Origin: Thermomonas beijingensis | GTDB taxonomy: Bacteria; Pseudomonadota; Gammaproteobacteria; Xanthomonadales; Xanthomonadaceae | Assembly: GCF_020034655.1 (NCBI RefSeq) | Contig: NZ_JAIQDJ010000004.1 | Coordinates: 62,001-126,000 of the forward strand | Reading direction: 5' to 3' | Length of the DNA: 64,000 nucleotides | Part shown: one piece after another, positions 28,435-36,607 of the stretch | How positions within the stretch are numbered: the first letter of the stretch is position 1 | How the letters are laid out: each line of letters begins with the position of its first letter | The notes under the pieces: generated by a model | Database searches by the model: none | Told to the model about the DNA's origin: nothing | What the model saw: the letters and a program-made list of their open reading frames with translations, nothing else | Position numbers and translations under genes: made by a program

Positions 28435-30528
<2,094 letters not shown>

Positions 30529-30578
30529 CGGTGTAAAACCCGTGCGCTTGCCCTTGGTAGCCCCGCAGCGCACAATCC

Positions 30579-30597
30579 AATGGCAAACTTTGCCATT
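30579..30597. promoter_or_regulatory. Palindromic operator of the parDE pair
   Basis: AATGGCAAA (30579-30587), one central base, then TTTGCCATT (30589-30597): a perfect nine-base inverted repeat 14 bases before the antitoxin start. Ribbon-helix-helix antitoxins autoregulate by binding such sites; binding here is inferred from position and symmetry. Confidence 0.7.
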
Positions 30598-30611
30598 ACT
30601 GGAGCTGCGCC

Positions 30612-30869
30612 ATGGCGACGATGAATATTTCCCTGACCGATCCGCTCAAGCAATTCGTCGATGAAGAAGTGCGCGAAGGCGGGTTTTCCAGCACGTCCGA
30701 CTACATGCGCGACCTGATCCGCCAGCGCCAACGCGCCAAAGCGGCAGAGTTTTTGCGTCAACTGATTGCGGAAGGCATGGCGTCGGGCCCTGCTACACCG
30801 CAGGAACCAGATTTTTTCGACAACTTGCGCCAGCGTGCACACCAGCGTGCCGAGCAAGGTAAGCGCTAA
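30612..30869 (+). CDS. parD: Antitoxin, ParD family
   Basis: An 85-residue antitoxin with an N-terminal ribbon-helix-helix DNA-binding domain (MNISLTDPLKQFVDEEVREGGFSSTSDYMRDLIR) and a C-terminal toxin-wrapping tail ending in PDFFDNLRQRAHQRAEQGKR. The operator palindrome 30579-30597 lies just upstream, and GGAG at 30601-30604 provides the ribosome binding site. The stop is directly followed by the GTG start of the toxin. It sits between recG and the mod gene, at the left edge of a defence island. Confidence 0.92.
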   Translation: MATMNISLTDPLKQFVDEEVREGGFSSTSDYMRDLIRQRQRAKAAEFLRQLIAEGMASGPATPQEPDFFDNLRQRAHQRAEQGKR

Positions 30870-31196
30870 GTGAAGCCCATTCATTGGCGCGATCCCGCAC
30901 GCCATGATTTAGAGGATGCTGCCAGCTGGTACGCACAACAAGGCGGGTTTCTGCTGGAAACGCGCTTCATTGCAGCGGTGGAATCCACATCCCTGCTTAT
31001 CCGGCAGCATCCCGCCGTAGGCTCAGCGCGGCACGCCAACGCAGTGACGGGCTTGCCTGCGCCGTTGCGCTATTTCTTGATCAAGCACTTCGAACGTTAT
31101 CTGCTTTACTACCTCGACCTTCCCACCCACGTTGAAGTGCTGCGTATCTGGAACAGCGCACGCGGGCTTGCAGCCTTGATGGAAGAAGACGCATGA
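30870..31196 (+). CDS. parE: Toxin, ParE/RelE superfamily
   Basis: A 108-residue toxin with the ParE fold: WRDPARHDLEDAASWYAQQ at the start, AVGSARHANAVTGLPAPLRYF in the middle, and YLLYYLDLPTHVEVLRIWNSARG near the end. ParE proteins poison DNA gyrase, whereas other superfamily members cut mRNA; the sequence fits ParE better. It begins with GTG with no gap after parD, so its translation depends on the antitoxin. It seems intact. Confidence 0.9.
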   Translation: MKPIHWRDPARHDLEDAASWYAQQGGFLLETRFIAAVESTSLLIRQHPAVGSARHANAVTGLPAPLRYFLIKHFERYLLYYLDLPTHVEVLRIWNSARGLAALMEEDA

Positions 31197-31263
31197 CCGC
31201 CGTCGCAACCGCTGCGACGTGCATCCGCACACTGTCTGCAATTCTCTTTGGAACACATCCCGC

Positions 31264-32904
31264 ATGCCCAGCCTGAACTGGATCGGCAAAGCCGCCGTCG
31301 TCAACCACCACCAGGACGTGCCGTTCCGCCTGCTGGAGCCGGCGCAATCGTTGTCCTGCGGGGATACCGAAACCGGCAACCTGATCGTGCAAGGCGACAA
31401 CCTGCTGGCGCTCAAGGCCTTGCTGCCGCGCTACGCCGGGCAGGTGAAGTGCATCTATATCGACCCGCCGTACAACACCGGCAACGAGGGCTGGGTCTAT
31501 AACGACAACGTCAACTCGCCGGAGATCCGCCGCTGGTTGGGCGAGGTGGTGGGCAAGGAAGGCGAGACCCTGGACCGGCACGACCGCTGGCTGTGCATGA
31601 TGTATCCGCGGTTGATGCTGCTGAAGCAGTTTCTGCGGGAGGATGGGGCGATCTTCGTGTCGATTGATGATAACGAAGTGGCGAGTTTGCGACTGTTGAT
31701 GAACGAGGTGTTTGGATCTGAAAATTTCGTTGCGACCGTCATCTGGCAGAAGAAGTACGCCGCTTCCAACGACCACAAAACGATCGCACCGATGCATGAT
31801 TTCGTGCTGCTGTATCAACGAACGGAAAGTTGGCGTCGCAATCTTTTGCCGCGAGGTGAAGAAAAGGATTCGCAGTACAAGTTTGAGGATGATGCGGGTG
31901 TGTTTCGAAGTAGCGATTACACCTGCGCCAAGACGGTTGAAGAGCGTCCCAACCTGTACTACTCGGTTATCAATCCCAACACCGGCGAAGAAATCTGGCC
32001 AAAGCGCACCCGCGTCTGGGCGTATTCTCAGGAAGAGCATCAGCGCCATGTGACAGAAGGGTTGATCTATTGGGGCAAGGATGGGAGGGGCAAAGTCCCG
32101 GCGTACAAACGCTACAAACATGCACTTCGTAATGATGGAATCATTCCGCAAACGCTGTGGCCGCATGAGTTTGCTGGGCATACGGACGGTTCGCGCAAAG
32201 AGTTGCGTGAAGTGCTGCATGACGTGCCTTCAGTGTCTGACTTTGCAACTCCCAAGCCTTCACTATTGATCCAACGCATTTTGCAAATCGCCAGCGACAA
32301 AGATTCGATCATCCTCGACAGCTTCGCCGGCTCCGGCACCACCGCCCACGCCGTGCTGAAACAGAACGCCGAAGACGGCGGCAACCGCCGCTTCATCCTG
32401 GTTGAAATGGACGAAGGCATCGCCCGCGACGTGACGGCCGAGCGCGTCAAGCGCGTCGCGCAGGGCTACACCAACGGCAAAGGCCAACCGGTCGAAGGCC
32501 TTGGCGGCGGTTTCCAATTCTGCACACTCGGCAAACCGCTGTTCGACGCCCGCGGCCATATCAGCAATGACGTGCGCTTTGCCGAGCTGGCGCGCTTCGT
32601 CTGGTTCGTGGAAACCGGCATGGGCCTGCCCGCCAAACGCGCCAGCCGCAATACCGCCGATACCGCAAGCCCCTTGCTGGGTATGCACGAAGGCCGCGCC
32701 GTCTATCTGCTCTACAACGGCATCCTGAAAGACCGCAGCATCGACGGCGGCAACGTACTCACCTCCCTGCTGCTAGAGCACCTGCCCGCCCACGACGGCC
32801 CCAAGGTGGTGTACGCCGCCCGCTGCGCCATCGGTGCCGAGCGCCTGCGCAAACTCGGCATCACCTTCAAGCAATTGCCCTACCACCTGCGGGTAGCGCC
32901 GTGA
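31264..32904 (+). CDS. mod: Type III-like DNA methyltransferase (Mod)
   Basis: Site-specific adenine (or cytosine-N4) methyltransferase of the beta class (546 aa). The catalytic motif DPPYNTG is at 67-73 and the SAM-binding DSFAGSGTTAHAVL at 352-365, so motif IV precedes motif I as in beta enzymes. The central ~170-340 region is the target-recognition part. Base composition falls there: I count 29 G+C of 60 at 31681-31740 against 41 of 60 at 32401-32460. The start MPSLNW at 31264 was preferred over an upstream in-frame ATG at 31219. Its restriction partner is at 33974. Confidence 0.92.
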   Translation: MPSLNWIGKAAVVNHHQDVPFRLLEPAQSLSCGDTETGNLIVQGDNLLALKALLPRYAGQVKCIYIDPPYNTGNEGWVYNDNVNSPEIRRWLGEVVGKEGETLDRHDRWLCMMYPRLMLLKQFLREDGAIFVSIDDNEVASLRLLMNEVFGSENFVATVIWQKKYAASNDHKTIAPMHDFVLLYQRTESWRRNLLPRGEEKDSQYKFEDDAGVFRSSDYTCAKTVEERPNLYYSVINPNTGEEIWPKRTRVWAYSQEEHQRHVTEGLIYWGKDGRGKVPAYKRYKHALRNDGIIPQTLWPHEFAGHTDGSRKELREVLHDVPSVSDFATPKPSLLIQRILQIASDKDSIILDSFAGSGTTAHAVLKQNAEDGGNRRFILVEMDEGIARDVTAERVKRVAQGYTNGKGQPVEGLGGGFQFCTLGKPLFDARGHISNDVRFAELARFVWFVETGMGLPAKRASRNTADTASPLLGMHEGRAVYLLYNGILKDRSIDGGNVLTSLLLEHLPAHDGPKVVYAARCAIGAERLRKLGITFKQLPYHLRVAP

Positions 32905-33244
32905 TCGCGCATCTACGCAATCCCTCCGTAGGTTGGGTTGAGCGAAGCGAAGCCCAACGCCCGCCATGCCACAAGGCCACCCCCGTAGGTTGGGCTGAGC
33001 GCAGCGAAGCCCAACGTCATCCGCGTTACCCGTTGGGCTTCCTTGCGTCAGCCCAACCTACGTTTGGTGACGCGGATGCACTTGAACCTGAACGAACCAT
33101 TCGGAAATTTCGAATAGTTCAGACAGAAAGTGTATTTGAGTTGGGTTTCCTGCCGTTAGCCCAACCTACGCAATGTTTCAATGCCACCCCCGTAGGTTGG
33201 GCTGAGCGCAGCGAAGCCCAACGTCAAGCACCGGGCCGGTTGTC
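32905..33244. repeat. Gene-free stretch with five REP hairpins
   Basis: This 340-base gap between mod and the REP transposase holds five copies of one REP hairpin, each starting GTAGGTTGGG on one strand: forward copies at 32928-32959, 32985-33016 and 33192-33223, inverted copies at 33031-33062 and 33141-33170. Each is GTAG followed by a stem (GTTGGGCT with AGCCCAAC). Between copies four and three lies an AT-rich inverted repeat at about 33098-33122 (AACCATTCG with CGAATAGTT) that may be promoter-related. No gene is visible. Confidence 0.9.
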
Positions 33245-33772
33245 ATGAGGTACCGGCGCGCCAACGTAGAAGGCGGGACGTACTTCTTCACGGTGAACCT
33301 TGCCGACCGGCAGGCAGACACGTTGGTCAGGCACATCGACGCTTTGCGTGAAAGCTTGCACACGATGAAAGCGGCACATCCGTTTGCACTTGTTGCAATG
33401 GCGGTATTGCCAGAGCACTTGCACGCCATCTGGCGGCTTCCGGCTGGTGATGCGGACTATTCCACGCGTTGGGCTTTACTCAAAGCGGGGTTCTCGCGCC
33501 GCGTGCAGGCAGGGGAATCCATCAGTCAGAGTCGCGCAGCAAAGCGCGAGCGTGGGCTATGGCAACGCCGCTATTGGGAGCACCAAATTCGTGACGAGGA
33601 CGACCTTGCGCGGCATGTGGACTACACCCATTTCAATCCAGTCAAGCATGGTTGGGTTTCAGCCGCCGCAGACTGGCCGCACTCGACGTTGCATGCATAT
33701 GCTGCGCGTGGATTGGTTTCGCCTGATTGGGGCGTGGTGAACAATGATGATGCGCATTGCTATGGCGAATGA
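33245..33772 (+). mobile_element. REP-associated tyrosine transposase (RAYT)
   Basis: A 175-residue Y1 transposase-like protein that is related to IS200/IS605 enzymes and handles REP sequences. It opens YRRANVEGGTYFFTVNLADR, carries the metal-binding HLH in VLPEHLHAIWRLP, and the tyrosine region DYTHFNPVKHGWV. GLWQRRYWEHQIRDEDD is another family block. It is flanked on both sides by REP hairpins that start with GTAG, the tetranucleotide recognised by this family. The gene is complete and appears intact. It separates mod from res. Confidence 0.93.
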
Positions 33773-33798
33773 CATACGAGTAATGCTCAAGTCCGGGT

Positions 33799-33939
33799 GT
33801 TGGGCTTCGCGGCGCTCAGCCCAAGCTACGGGAACAAGCCCGAGTTATTGCGTAGGTTGGGTTGAGCGCAGCGAAGCCCAACACCCGCCATGCCACACGA
33901 CCAACCGAGTAGGTTGGGTTGAGCACCGCGAAGCCCAAC
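33799..33939. repeat. Three REP hairpins downstream of the RAYT gene
   Basis: REP copies at 33799-33830 (inverted), 33852-33882 and 33909-33939 (forward). The last two and their spacer repeat the arrangement at 32928-33016: both spacers contain CCCGCCATGCCACA (32960-32973 and 33884-33897). So paired REPs flank the RAYT cassette as direct repeats of about 88 bases. The array ends 34 bases before the res start. Confidence 0.88.
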
Positions 33940-33973
33940 ACCAACCACCGCGATCAACCAAGGACACGGGCGC

Positions 33974-36607
33974 ATGAGCCTGAAGGACTACCAGAGCGAA
34001 GTGCTGGATCGCTACGAGGCCTTCCTGCACGCATGGCGTGCGCAGGCCGAGGCCAACCCCGGCACCCGGCAGGCCAGCCGGTTGGCGTTCGAGCAATGCA
34101 CGCAGGCCAATTTCGGCTTCCGCATTCCCTACCACGCGCCTGAAGCATTGGCTGCGGACGATGTGCCGGTGGTCTGCCTGCGCGTGCCCACCGGTGGTGG
34201 CAAAACGGTGATTGGCGGCCATGCCATCGCCCGCGCCAAGCGCGCATTGCCGCTGGGCGAGCGCAGCCTGACCGTGTGGCTGGTGCCTACCGATGCTATC
34301 CGCACGCAAACCTTGCGCGTGCTGAAAACCCCCGGCGAGTTGCTCTACCGCGAGTTGCGCACATTGTTTGGTGAGGTGGCGGTGCTGGATATCGACGAGG
34401 CGCTGGCGGTGCCGCCCTCGGTGCTGGATGGCCACGACACCATCATCGTGGCCACCATGCAGGCGTTCAAACAGGCCGATACCGAACGCTTGGCGGTGTA
34501 TCGCGCCAATGGCGCGCTGATGGAGCATTTTCGCGGTATCGAAGGCAGCGGCTGGTCGCTGGTGGAAGCGCTGGCGCTGCGCCGCCCGTTCATCGTGGTG
34601 GATGAGGCGCACAACCAAGGCAGCGAACTGGCCTTCGATACCTTGGCTCGGCTGGCCCCCAGTGCGGTGCTGGAATTGACCGCCACCCCGGACCGCCTGC
34701 ATCAACCGTCCAATGTGCTGGTGTCGATTTCCGCCTCCACCCTGCAAAGCGAGGACATGATCAAGCTGCCGGTGGATATGGCCGTACACCCGGACTGGCG
34801 CATTGCCCTGCGTGAGGCCATCGCCCAGTTGGGTGCGCTGCAACGCGAGGCCGATGCCGAATGCGTGGCCACCGGCGAAGTGCTGCGGCCGATCATGCTG
34901 TTGCAGGCCGAGCGCCAGCAGAAAGACAACCCGGACGCGATGACCGTGGACCGCGTGCGTGCGGCGTTGATCGATGAATTCGGCATCCCCGCCGCGCAGA
35001 TCGCACGTTCCGCCACCGGCGTGGATGAGCTGGTGGATGTGGATGCGGCCGCGCTGCGCTTTGTCATCACCTCGGACAAATTGCGCGAAGGTTGGGACTG
35101 GCCAGCGGCGTATGTGTTGATGAGCTTTCGCGGCAGCAGCACGCAGATGGCGCTGGAACAGGTGCTGGGCCGCGTGCTGCGCATGCCGCAGGTGACCCGC
35201 AAGCAGCACGAGGCGCTTAACCGCGCCTATGCCTTCGCGGTGTCCAGCAATATCGCCGAGGTGGCCGCCACCCTGCGTGATGGTTTGGTGCAGGCCGGGT
35301 TTGAACGGCAAGACATCAATGATCTGGTGCGTACCGTCATGCCGCAGGCAGATGGCGCGGAAGACCTGTTACGGCAGAACGCCAGTGTATCGTTGTCATT
35401 GCCGATGGCTGGCGATGCGGTGGTGTTGCCGGATTTCAGCCAAATGCCGGACGCCACCCGCAAGCGGATCGAAGGCAAGCTGGATATTTCGCCGGAAACC
35501 GGCAGCATGACCTTGCGCGGGCAGTGGAAGCCTGCGGAACAGAAAGCACTGCAGGACGCATTCGCCGGTACCACGGCGGCGGCGGGCCTTGAGCGGGCGT
35601 TCAACCGCTTGGCCGCACCCGTCGAATTGCCCGTGCAGACACCTTCAGAGCGTGGCGAGGCGTTCAGCCTGCCGCTGTTGGCGTGGTCGCAGGGTGATTG
35701 GCTGGTGGACCTGGGCGACGCGCCGCCACTGGAAGGCACGCTGGCGCTGGGCGAGATCGATCCTTTGCTGGATGAGGCGGCCTATCCGCGTGAACTGGAA
35801 ACCCTGCAACGCCGGCGCCTGCAAATGAATGACGCCGGCAGGCTGCACCTTGATCCGCTGGAAAAGCTCGACGTGCAGATGGGCCTGTTCGGCGTGCGCG
35901 ACACCGCCAGCGTGGAAGATCTGCTGTGGACGTTGGAGCAGCATCTTTCGGCAGCGGATCTGGAACCGGATGAGCTTTCGGCGTGGCTGTCCGGTGTGCT
36001 GCGGCACTTGCAGGAAGCACGCGGTTTTTCCATCGACGAGCTGGCCTATCGCCGGCCACGCCTGCGCGAGGCGCTGGGTGAACGGATTGCGGCGGCACGG
36101 CGCATGGGACATCGCCAGCGCTTTCTCGATTTGCTGGGCGATGAGACGCAGATGAGCGCGGATGCGCGCCTGCAATGCGTGTTCAAAAGCGGCCGTTATG
36201 CCTGGGACTCGCTGTACAACGGCTTCATCACCCTGCCCAAGCACTTCTTCCCGCAGATCGGCAACCTGAAATCGCAAGGCGAAGAGTTCGAGTGCGCGGA
36301 TTTCATCGCCAATCGTCTGGACGGCGTGCGCGACTGGGTGCGCAATATCGAACGCAAGCACGGCGCGTTCTCGTTGCCGACCTCGAAACAGCGTTTCTAT
36401 CCCGACTTCCTGCTGCGCATGCAGGACGGCCGCATGCTGGTGGTCGAGTACAAAGGCGCGCATCTGTACAACGACCCCGATCAGGTGGAAAAGCGCCGTA
36501 TCGGTGCGCTGTGGGCCAGGCGCGCGGGCAAGGGTTTTGGCTTCGTGATGCCCAAGCAGAAAGAGTGGTCGGCGATCCAGCAGGCGTTGGACGACATGCG
36601 CGCATGA
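33974..36607 (+). CDS. res: Type III-like restriction enzyme subunit (Res)
   Basis: Superfamily 2 helicase/nuclease (877 aa). Walker A PTGGGKT is at 72-78, DEAH at 210-213, TATPDRLHQ shortly after, and the late helicase motif SDKLREGWDWPAAYVL. The C-terminal nuclease domain has PDFLLRMQDGRMLVVEYK at 810-827, a PD...EXK-type catalytic signature. Together with the Mod protein it would cut unmethylated DNA after ATP-driven scanning. It lies 1.07 kb downstream of mod because the REP/RAYT cassette is between them. It appears intact; whether its promoter is within the REP region is unknown. Confidence 0.92.
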   Translation: MSLKDYQSEVLDRYEAFLHAWRAQAEANPGTRQASRLAFEQCTQANFGFRIPYHAPEALAADDVPVVCLRVPTGGGKTVIGGHAIARAKRALPLGERSLTVWLVPTDAIRTQTLRVLKTPGELLYRELRTLFGEVAVLDIDEALAVPPSVLDGHDTIIVATMQAFKQADTERLAVYRANGALMEHFRGIEGSGWSLVEALALRRPFIVVDEAHNQGSELAFDTLARLAPSAVLELTATPDRLHQPSNVLVSISASTLQSEDMIKLPVDMAVHPDWRIALREAIAQLGALQREADAECVATGEVLRPIMLLQAERQQKDNPDAMTVDRVRAALIDEFGIPAAQIARSATGVDELVDVDAAALRFVITSDKLREGWDWPAAYVLMSFRGSSTQMALEQVLGRVLRMPQVTRKQHEALNRAYAFAVSSNIAEVAATLRDGLVQAGFERQDINDLVRTVMPQADGAEDLLRQNASVSLSLPMAGDAVVLPDFSQMPDATRKRIEGKLDISPETGSMTLRGQWKPAEQKALQDAFAGTTAAAGLERAFNRLAAPVELPVQTPSERGEAFSLPLLAWSQGDWLVDLGDAPPLEGTLALGEIDPLLDEAAYPRELETLQRRRLQMNDAGRLHLDPLEKLDVQMGLFGVRDTASVEDLLWTLEQHLSAADLEPDELSAWLSGVLRHLQEARGFSIDELAYRRPRLREALGERIAAARRMGHRQRFLDLLGDETQMSADARLQCVFKSGRYAWDSLYNGFITLPKHFFPQIGNLKSQGEEFECADFIANRLDGVRDWVRNIERKHGAFSLPTSKQRFYPDFLLRMQDGRMLVVEYKGAHLYNDPDQVEKRRIGALWARRAGKGFGFVMPKQKEWSAIQQALDDMRA

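Follow-up and report, generated by a model that had tools for sequence, protein, structure and literature searches.

The mod–res locus and its cassette

This report concerns a restriction–modification (R-M) locus in a 64,000-nt stretch of DNA from Thermomonas beijingensis (contig NZ_JAIQDJ010000004.1, positions 62,001 to 126,000; hereafter the window), part of a genome of 2.79 Mb in 60 contigs. Two intact type III-like genes, mod and res, are separated there by a cassette made up of repetitive extragenic palindromic (REP) hairpins and a gene for a REP-associated tyrosine transposase (RAYT). The data presented below indicate that this cassette took the place of a third gene, rhuM, and that a surviving fragment of rhuM probably preserves a site at which RhuM proteins recognize the gene that encodes them.

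Type III R-M systems cleave DNA in an ATP-dependent manner at two inversely oriented sites. The mod gene (31264-32904, + strand) encodes a type III-like β-class DNA methyltransferase of 546 aa, matching PF01555 (E 2.9e-36) and the PADLOC model MTase_III (E 9.6e-211); its DPPY motif precedes FAGSG (FxGxG), the β-class order of type III Mod proteins, which are N6 methyltransferases. The res gene (33974-36607, + strand) encodes a type III-like restriction subunit of 877 aa, matching PF04851 (E 5.9e-11) and PADLOC REase_III (E 1.2e-100), with the PTGGGKT (Walker A), DEAH and PD...EYK nuclease motifs of a type III Res. Among the named genome contigs found, the closest res (92% identity) is that of a Thermomonas metagenome-assembled genome (MAG). 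The adjacency of mod and res expected of a type III system is missing, the gap between them (32905-33973) measuring 1,069 bp. Both frames nevertheless look constrained. The ratio of non-synonymous to synonymous substitution (dN/dS) for res was 0.089, 0.219 and 0.212 in comparison with the related loci L043, L045 and L044, respectively, and that for mod was 0.100 in comparison with L045, figures that average also over the time preceding the arrival of the cassette.

The RAYT gene (33245-33772, + strand, 175 aa) matches NCBIfam NF047646 (E 8e-58; 194 bits against a cut-off of 80) and encodes the HLH and YTHFNPV motifs of the Y1-HUH type. Eight REP-like copies, five in + and three in - orientation, were read from a repeat search of the gap. 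Three lie at 32927-33062 (+ from 32927, + from 32984, - at 33032-33062), two at 33140-33222 (- at 33140-33170, + at 33191-33222) and three at 33794-33942 (- at 33799-33830, + from 33851, + from 33909); the + copies of the first group and copies of the third were seen in a genome scan as well. The hairpins carry GTAG and flank the RAYT gene, as REP units do. The first-pass annotation had described intact mod and res frames with REP hairpins and a transposase-like gene between them, and that description is borne out in full.

The genome scan, made with one consensus and at most three mismatches across 2.79 Mb, returned six REPs. All six (6/6) lie in the mod–res gap around their own RAYT gene and none elsewhere, so that no dispersal was seen. 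Related RAYT units at two other loci (L204, L205) have REP-like copies, with 5–6 mismatches of 31, at similar offsets. No close RAYT was found in 24 other sampled genomes of the genus, which gave two weak matches (29% and 36% identity); the best match outside the T. beijingensis genome, among 274 genomes of the class, has 71% identity, and the nearest relatives belong to other families of the class. Since a close RAYT is missing from the genus genomes sampled and the best match in those of the class stands at 71%, the sequences point to horizontal arrival of the cassette.

An open frame at 32901-33248 overlaps both the mod stop codon (GTGA) and the RAYT start codon (ATGA). It was rejected as a protein, having no Pfam or NCBIfam match, and is regarded as a chance frame read through REP sequence and a rhuM relic (see below); the overlaps would permit translational coupling from mod through this frame to RAYT.

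The occupant of the slot in related loci

Among 27 loci compared (L023–L049), a RAYT match was found only in L023, which is the window's own locus. In L045–L048, whose res genes are 71–78% identical to that of the window, the approximately 1.06 kb between mod and res consists of a single frame of about 352 aa that overlaps both neighbours. In the two relatives tested this frame is a PF13310 RhuM gene (E 5e-110 in L045, 2.9e-111 in L046). The L045 protein also matches PDC-S05, a phage-defence candidate of PADLOC, while the PDC-S23 models match its N-terminal part only.

In the closest relative (L043; res 92% identical) the order is parDE-mod-rhuM-res, split over two contigs (L043 and L209) with a 141-nt overlap. 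Part of the interior of its rhuM is deleted, and neither L209 nor the first 3 kb of L043 gave a RAYT match. The two contigs come from one MAG and share an identical 141-nt end (L043 1-141 = L209 1-141) that covers the rhuM palindrome described below; this suggests a branch there, arising for example from a mixture of intact and deleted rhuM. In L044 rhuM is almost wholly deleted, and a REP-like hairpin different from that of the window adjoins the remnant. In L027 (res 71%, as near as L047) and in the more distant L028–L042 and L049, mod and res touch or nearly so; near-zero gaps were found in L031, L038, L027, L029 and L030, which are minus-strand loci where the res match starts late. Across these relatives, as far as their sequences indicate, rhuM comes and goes between mod and res. 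The slot holds an intact rhuM in L045–L048, and a cut-down rhuM in L043 and L044.

The association extends to plasmids, where rhuM is annotated beside R-M genes in seven of 15 regions (L189–L193, L195, L199). The order is mod-rhuM-res in L193, and in L189–L192 hsdM precedes rhuM and hsdS follows it. In L195, a Monoglobus plasmid, the order is helicase (res-like)-rhuM-methyltransferase, with rhuM still in the middle though its flanks are swapped. Of 397 genomes sampled in the phylum, 80 had a RhuM match above the family cut-off.

Two further genes lie upstream of mod in the window, on the + strand: a ParD-like antitoxin gene (30612-30869; PF03693, TIGR02606) and a ParE-like toxin gene (30870-31196; PF05016, E 2.8e-9). 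Both are also found upstream of mod in L044, L045 and L209, and the unit may accordingly be parDE-mod-rhuM-res. The identity of the window's mod is 59% to L044 and 72% to L209, but 88% to L045, and its nucleotide alignment with L209 has a hole in mid-gene, as though the target-recognition part had been exchanged.

Relics of rhuM in the window

Pieces of rhuM, which the first-pass annotation had not noticed, were found on the + strand in the window. An internal relic of 41 nt (33081-33121) shares 93% identity with L043 and with the rhuM genes of L046 and L048, which are intact; identity to L047 is 83%, and the alignment to L045 covers 33069-33121 at 85%. A second relic (33958-33976), from the 3′ end of rhuM, overlaps the res start codon and is 89% identical to L048 over 19 nt (E 0.046); in the comparison with L045 it reaches 90% over 29 nt, running into res (E 1e-4). 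The window holds no intact RhuM frame, only these relics of 41 and about 19 nt, and the genome gave no PF13310/RhuM match.

Because the relatives hold rhuM in the slot and the window keeps relics of it, the cassette is best described, on this comparison, as a replacement of rhuM. Plain insertion into an adjacent mod–res pair was rejected on the same grounds. The earlier proposal that the cassette inserted without destroying function thus holds in so far as both frames, mod and res, are uninterrupted, retain their motifs and show signs of constraint; it fails in that no adjacent pair was split and rhuM was lost.

The internal relic contains a 27-bp palindrome (33094-33120, + strand) that is the predicted binding site of RhuM itself, as judged from the sequence and from the constraint on each pair across the family. 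Internal remnants that include the palindrome persist in all three loci with a broken rhuM: 41 nt in the window, 59 nt in L044 and a longer piece in L043. That the palindrome was retained in all three is suggestive of a meaning but does not prove one. In the window, pairs t1, t2, t4–t8 and t10–t13 are kept, while t3 (now G-T) and the tolerant t9 are lost. The site seems to be in the first stages of decay, since t3, which is paired in 112 of 115 family members, is broken.

A palindrome at a fixed position in rhuM genes

RhuM-domain genes were gathered from the order, the phylum, viral contigs and stretches around further matches, giving 147 open reading frames at 143 loci. Two frames were not covered (L127 and one from L125), leaving 145 rows. 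From the test with one fixed centre 17 rows were omitted, their window not being exactly 63 nt (the two uncovered frames, L128 and 14 with 10–13 pairs), so that 130 gapless rows, representing 115 distinct 31-mers, were used.

It is apparent that the palindrome is a feature of the family. The best centre had at least nine of 13 pairs in 144 of the 145 covered rows (L128 has six), nearly always at the same codons, which follow the helix-turn-helix (HTH); the median distance of the centre from the guessed start is 204 nt. Among the 115 31-mers, mean pairing at the fixed centre was 11.39 of 13, as compared with 8.26 (sd 0.10) when synonymous codons were resampled and 6.73 (sd 0.18) when arms were dealt anew. 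At least 11 pairs were present in 86 of the 115 sites, whereas among 123,245 other centres taken from these frames only three reached that number. Eight pairs (t3–t7 and t10–t12) were matched in 109–115 of the 115; t3 and t6 link third codon positions of both arms (t6 is matched in 114/115). G-T pairs numbered 0–1 at each of t3–t7 and t10–t12. Given this near-absence of G-T at the constrained positions, the constraint, as read from these alignments, acts on duplex DNA rather than on an RNA stem.

The letters of the arms vary widely and the encoded amino acids follow them (TIRKFRIV, VVAKFATT, TCKEFLQV, TTEESSVV and VVSILETT are examples). The same N-terminal domain is joined to Fic/DOC in five of ten proteins scanned (L129, L130, L133, L144, L146) and to the RhuM C-domain in the others, and the genes of these five fusions carry the palindrome too (9–13 of 13 pairs). 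A different palindrome type and wing sequence occur in L096, L172 and L173, which have gapped windows and were left out of the code described below. Among open-licence articles in PMC, a collection without preprints and subscription journals, no title or abstract was found that mentions a palindrome in rhuM.

Co-variation of the palindrome with its predicted reader

Protein columns were ranked by their information on the half-site in 125 sequences, with the codons of the palindrome left out. In the numbering of L045 RhuM the most informative were 55, 51, 50, 52, 54, 48, 88 and 49. The strongest partner of recognition-helix residues 48–56 among 175 nine-codon blocks was the palindrome (0.120, against a median of -0.010 and an sd of 0.032).

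Kinship was allowed for with 60 independent sister pairs and 183 columns. Among the pairs that agree at residue 55, t4 also agreed in 35 of 35, and among those that differ there, t4 differed in 19 of 25 (p 8.7e-11); the corresponding figures were 34 of 34 and 19 of 26 for residue 50 and t7 (p 3.2e-10), and 44 of 45 and 12 of 15 for wing residue 88 and t11 (p 4e-9). Each of these three associations ranked first among the 183 columns. More generally, the top column lay within 50–55 for each of t3–t8 and was residue 88 for t10 and t11. Particular residues accompany particular bases: at position 51, Q occurs with A in 31/31 and R with C (G opposite) in 19/19, and at position 55, E occurs with G (C opposite) in 40/41 and R with C in 10/11. 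These pairings (Q-A, R-C, E-G) are chemically plausible.

A code fixed on the training sequences was then applied to held-out plasmid genes from Campylobacterota, Pseudomonadota, Actinomycetota, Bacillota and Bacteroidota. The 15 plasmid loci had been hand-picked for phylum spread from 60 listed of 124 plasmid records with a match, and the position used for the site was whichever centre in nt 100–300 was the most palindromic. The site was present in 14 of the 15, with all eight core pairs in 13 and seven of eight in one; L203, which lacks it, stands outside the tally. The code predicted 60 of 67 bases, two of these 60 (L198, residue 88) resting on an alignment gap class; by position, the commonest base would have been right in 39–66% of the training sequences.

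An AlphaFold2 model (mean pLDDT 84) places residues 50–62 in the second HTH helix and residues 72–81/84–93 in a hairpin, from which it follows that the palindrome would encode the first strand of the wing. The nearest solved fold in Foldseek was DdrC (E 1.5e-3; VIA Z 7.1–7.6, rmsd 7.2–8.4 over 197–211 residues), and the DNA-binding domain of pSK1 Par also matched (Z 6.0, 53 residues, rmsd 2.2). A sequence search of the PDB with L045 RhuM gave only weak ribosomal S9 matches (best E 0.025), which were taken as chance.

Interpretation and competing explanations

Taken together, the fixed position, the covarying arms, the co-change with helix and wing residues and the out-of-sample performance of the code make it most likely that RhuM proteins and their Fic-fused cousins bind a site inside their own genes. 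We consider the following history and mechanism likely for the locus as a whole. The ancestral operon would have been parD-parE-mod-rhuM-res, in which most of rhuM gave way to a REP/RAYT unit acquired by horizontal transfer, with mod and res left open. The N-terminal winged HTH of RhuM, probably as a dimer, would bind the palindrome of about 25 bp in its own gene, which doubles as the codons for the first wing strand, and would thereby block RNA polymerase some 200 nt into rhuM, a form of negative autoregulation. If autoregulation is indeed the purpose, an elongation block is the simplest mode of action, because the flanking DNA covered shows no enrichment for a further copy of the site. Such a roadblock would lower res relative to mod in mod-rhuM-res operons (L045–L048, L193) and, in hsdM-rhuM-hsdS operons (L189–L192), would lower the genes that follow rhuM and not the methyltransferase before it. 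In the window, with rhuM gone, the site would have no partner left, and the R-M operon may well work without RhuM.

Several observations weigh against this interpretation. Not all of the clade carries rhuM, as L027 lacks it while being about as near as L046–L048. The site is absent from the plasmid member L203 (a 161-aa frame) and from the fragment L128. L180 and L183, which belong to a class in which KFGNSEF replaces the usual wing strand, have their best palindrome shifted downstream by 8 nt. Among the sister pairs residue 51 is weakly associated with t5 (p 1.4e-3; rank 5 of 183 columns), P and S at residue 51 accompany mixed bases, so that the code is incomplete, and seven of the 67 held-out predictions fail. 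The resemblance to DdrC is weak, and a common arrangement could account for the Z of 7.1–7.6. No enriched second copy was found around 127 genes in flanks of up to 1.5 kb on each side (full in 61 of 130 rows, with about 500 nt before the start in 82 of 130), and nothing promoter-proximal thus favours classical repression; an operator near the promoter gained no support, matches of at least 12/16 occurring in 10/127 loci with a gene's own arms and in about 9/127 with foreign arms. Paralogues in the same genome, with pairs assigned by hand from the locus tables, shared a core in 0 of 25 pairs against a background of 45 of 755, a difference that is not significant, and selection for orthogonality between them likewise gained no support. 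Finally, retention of the palindrome in the loci with a broken rhuM may be due to chance or shared history, and the L043 deletion adjoins a contig break.

The relic palindromes of the window, L043 and L044 might, alternatively, have been kept neither by chance nor for RhuM but for another host factor. The remnants of 41 nt (window) and 59 nt (L044), out of about 1,060 nt, both centre on the site, and the chance that a random fragment of such a length includes the complete site is about 1.5% and 3%, respectively, if the events are assumed to be independent. They may not be, and hairpin elements may insert preferentially into such DNA. No PF13310 match was found in the genomes of the window and of L043, the PF13310 gene of the L044 genome carries another site, and one constrained pair is broken in the window copy. 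We regard this explanation as rather unlikely.

It is also conceivable, though we think it unlikely, that RhuM binds the in-gene site mainly as a tether for a toxin-like protein, so that loss or degradation of the DNA would free the toxin and punish the cell. The site does lie inside the gene, the flanks examined show no enrichment of a further copy, and Fic/DOC is the partner of this DNA-binding domain in half of the proteins scanned; in the parts of the literature consulted, RhuM has been proposed as a toxin (PMC3710099) and RhuM-DOC fusions have been noted without an upstream antitoxin (PMC1626090). Toxicity of RhuM is, however, only putative here, and with one site in each copy of the gene, no more than a dimer could be held unless RhuM were present in very few molecules. 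A more far-reaching version, distinctly speculative in our estimation, would make RhuM and Fic proteins toxins leashed by their own genes. The leash would code for the wing, and loss of the gene or phage degradation of the chromosome would free the toxin; binding would also hold down res, linking restriction with self-killing, and the code (residues 50, 51, 55 and 88 to t7, t5, t4 and t10/t11, respectively) would allow the sites to be read.

The suggestion in the first-pass annotation that the cassette now sets the mod:res ratio gained nothing from the analysis, and we hold it to be very doubtful. The cassette does lie between two constrained frames, and REPs can affect transcripts in general. 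Against this, the slot belonged to rhuM, no RAYT match was found in L209 or the first 3 kb of L043 (the nearest relative) or in any of L024–L049, the REPs were found at this one locus of the genome only, and no promoter-like or terminator-like site above shuffles was found in 30500-34100. The idea may fit the lost rhuM better than the cassette, as a roadblock at the in-gene site would act on rhuM and res and not on mod.

It is highly improbable that mobile elements use the palindrome for integration or as a target: two different REP-like hairpins do adjoin it, in the window and in L044, but its letters co-change with the HTH of the same gene, which would not be expected of a foreign target, and the collected genes are mostly open through it. 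An RNA hairpin in the rhuM mRNA (an attenuator, or a cleavage or translation signal) can hardly be credited and was rejected, for although arms that match around a short centre would be expected to fold, G-T pairs, which are tolerated in an RNA stem, are nearly absent at the constrained positions, and base identity is tied to residues of the recognition helix.

Implications and comparison with known systems

RhuM is a widespread protein found in R-M operons and other islands, and the predicted self-site gives it a testable molecular function. A site in the gene's own codons that changes with the recognition helix would explain a highly variable stretch of the protein, and would make the family a rare natural protein–DNA recognition code with many independent trials. 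If the prediction is true, the code would be two-way, and residues 50, 51, 55 and 88 would allow the sites of many members to be read from sequence. The self-site also suggests how rhuM-bearing R-M operons may balance R against M. As a caution for annotation, what looks like an insertion between neighbouring genes may in fact have replaced a third gene.

The controller (C) proteins of type II R-M systems are small HTH regulators within R-M loci that set R relative to M. C-boxes lie upstream of the C gene, whereas the predicted RhuM site is inside the coding sequence and encodes the wing. Repressor sites inside coding sequence are known from gal OI and lac O2, where they lie in a target gene; the RhuM site, by contrast, would lie in the codons of its own predicted DNA-binding reader and diversify with it across phyla. 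The cassette resembles REP/RAYT units (NF047646) in having a transposase-like gene of the HUH type with GTAG-type REP hairpins on either side, arranged as inverted pairs, and differs from others in that its REPs were found at this locus only and in that the unit replaces a gene within an R-M operon.

The lost gene itself belongs to the RhuM family (PF13310; PADLOC PDC-S05), which includes the RhuM-Fic/DOC fusions, as the matches of the relatives' frames indicate; the window has relics only. RhuM is known from R-M operons and from fusions to DOC (PMC3710099), and the portions of the RhuM literature consulted do not mention an in-gene palindrome or its co-evolution with the HTH. In CccR, as far as the consulted part of that report describes it, a FIC toxin carries an HTH that represses its own promoter, binding a palindrome as a dimer (PMC9755527). 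The likeness lies in a toxin-type domain joined to an autoregulating DNA-binding domain, which for RhuM is predicted from sequence. The HTH of CccR, unlike that of RhuM, is C-terminal, and its site lies in the promoter, with 10-bp arms and a 26-bp spacer; no family-wide in-gene site is described in that part of the report (PMC9755527). RhuM-DOC fusions were noted in 2006 as being without an upstream antitoxin (PMC1626090), which fits a role for the N-terminal domain in taking over control.

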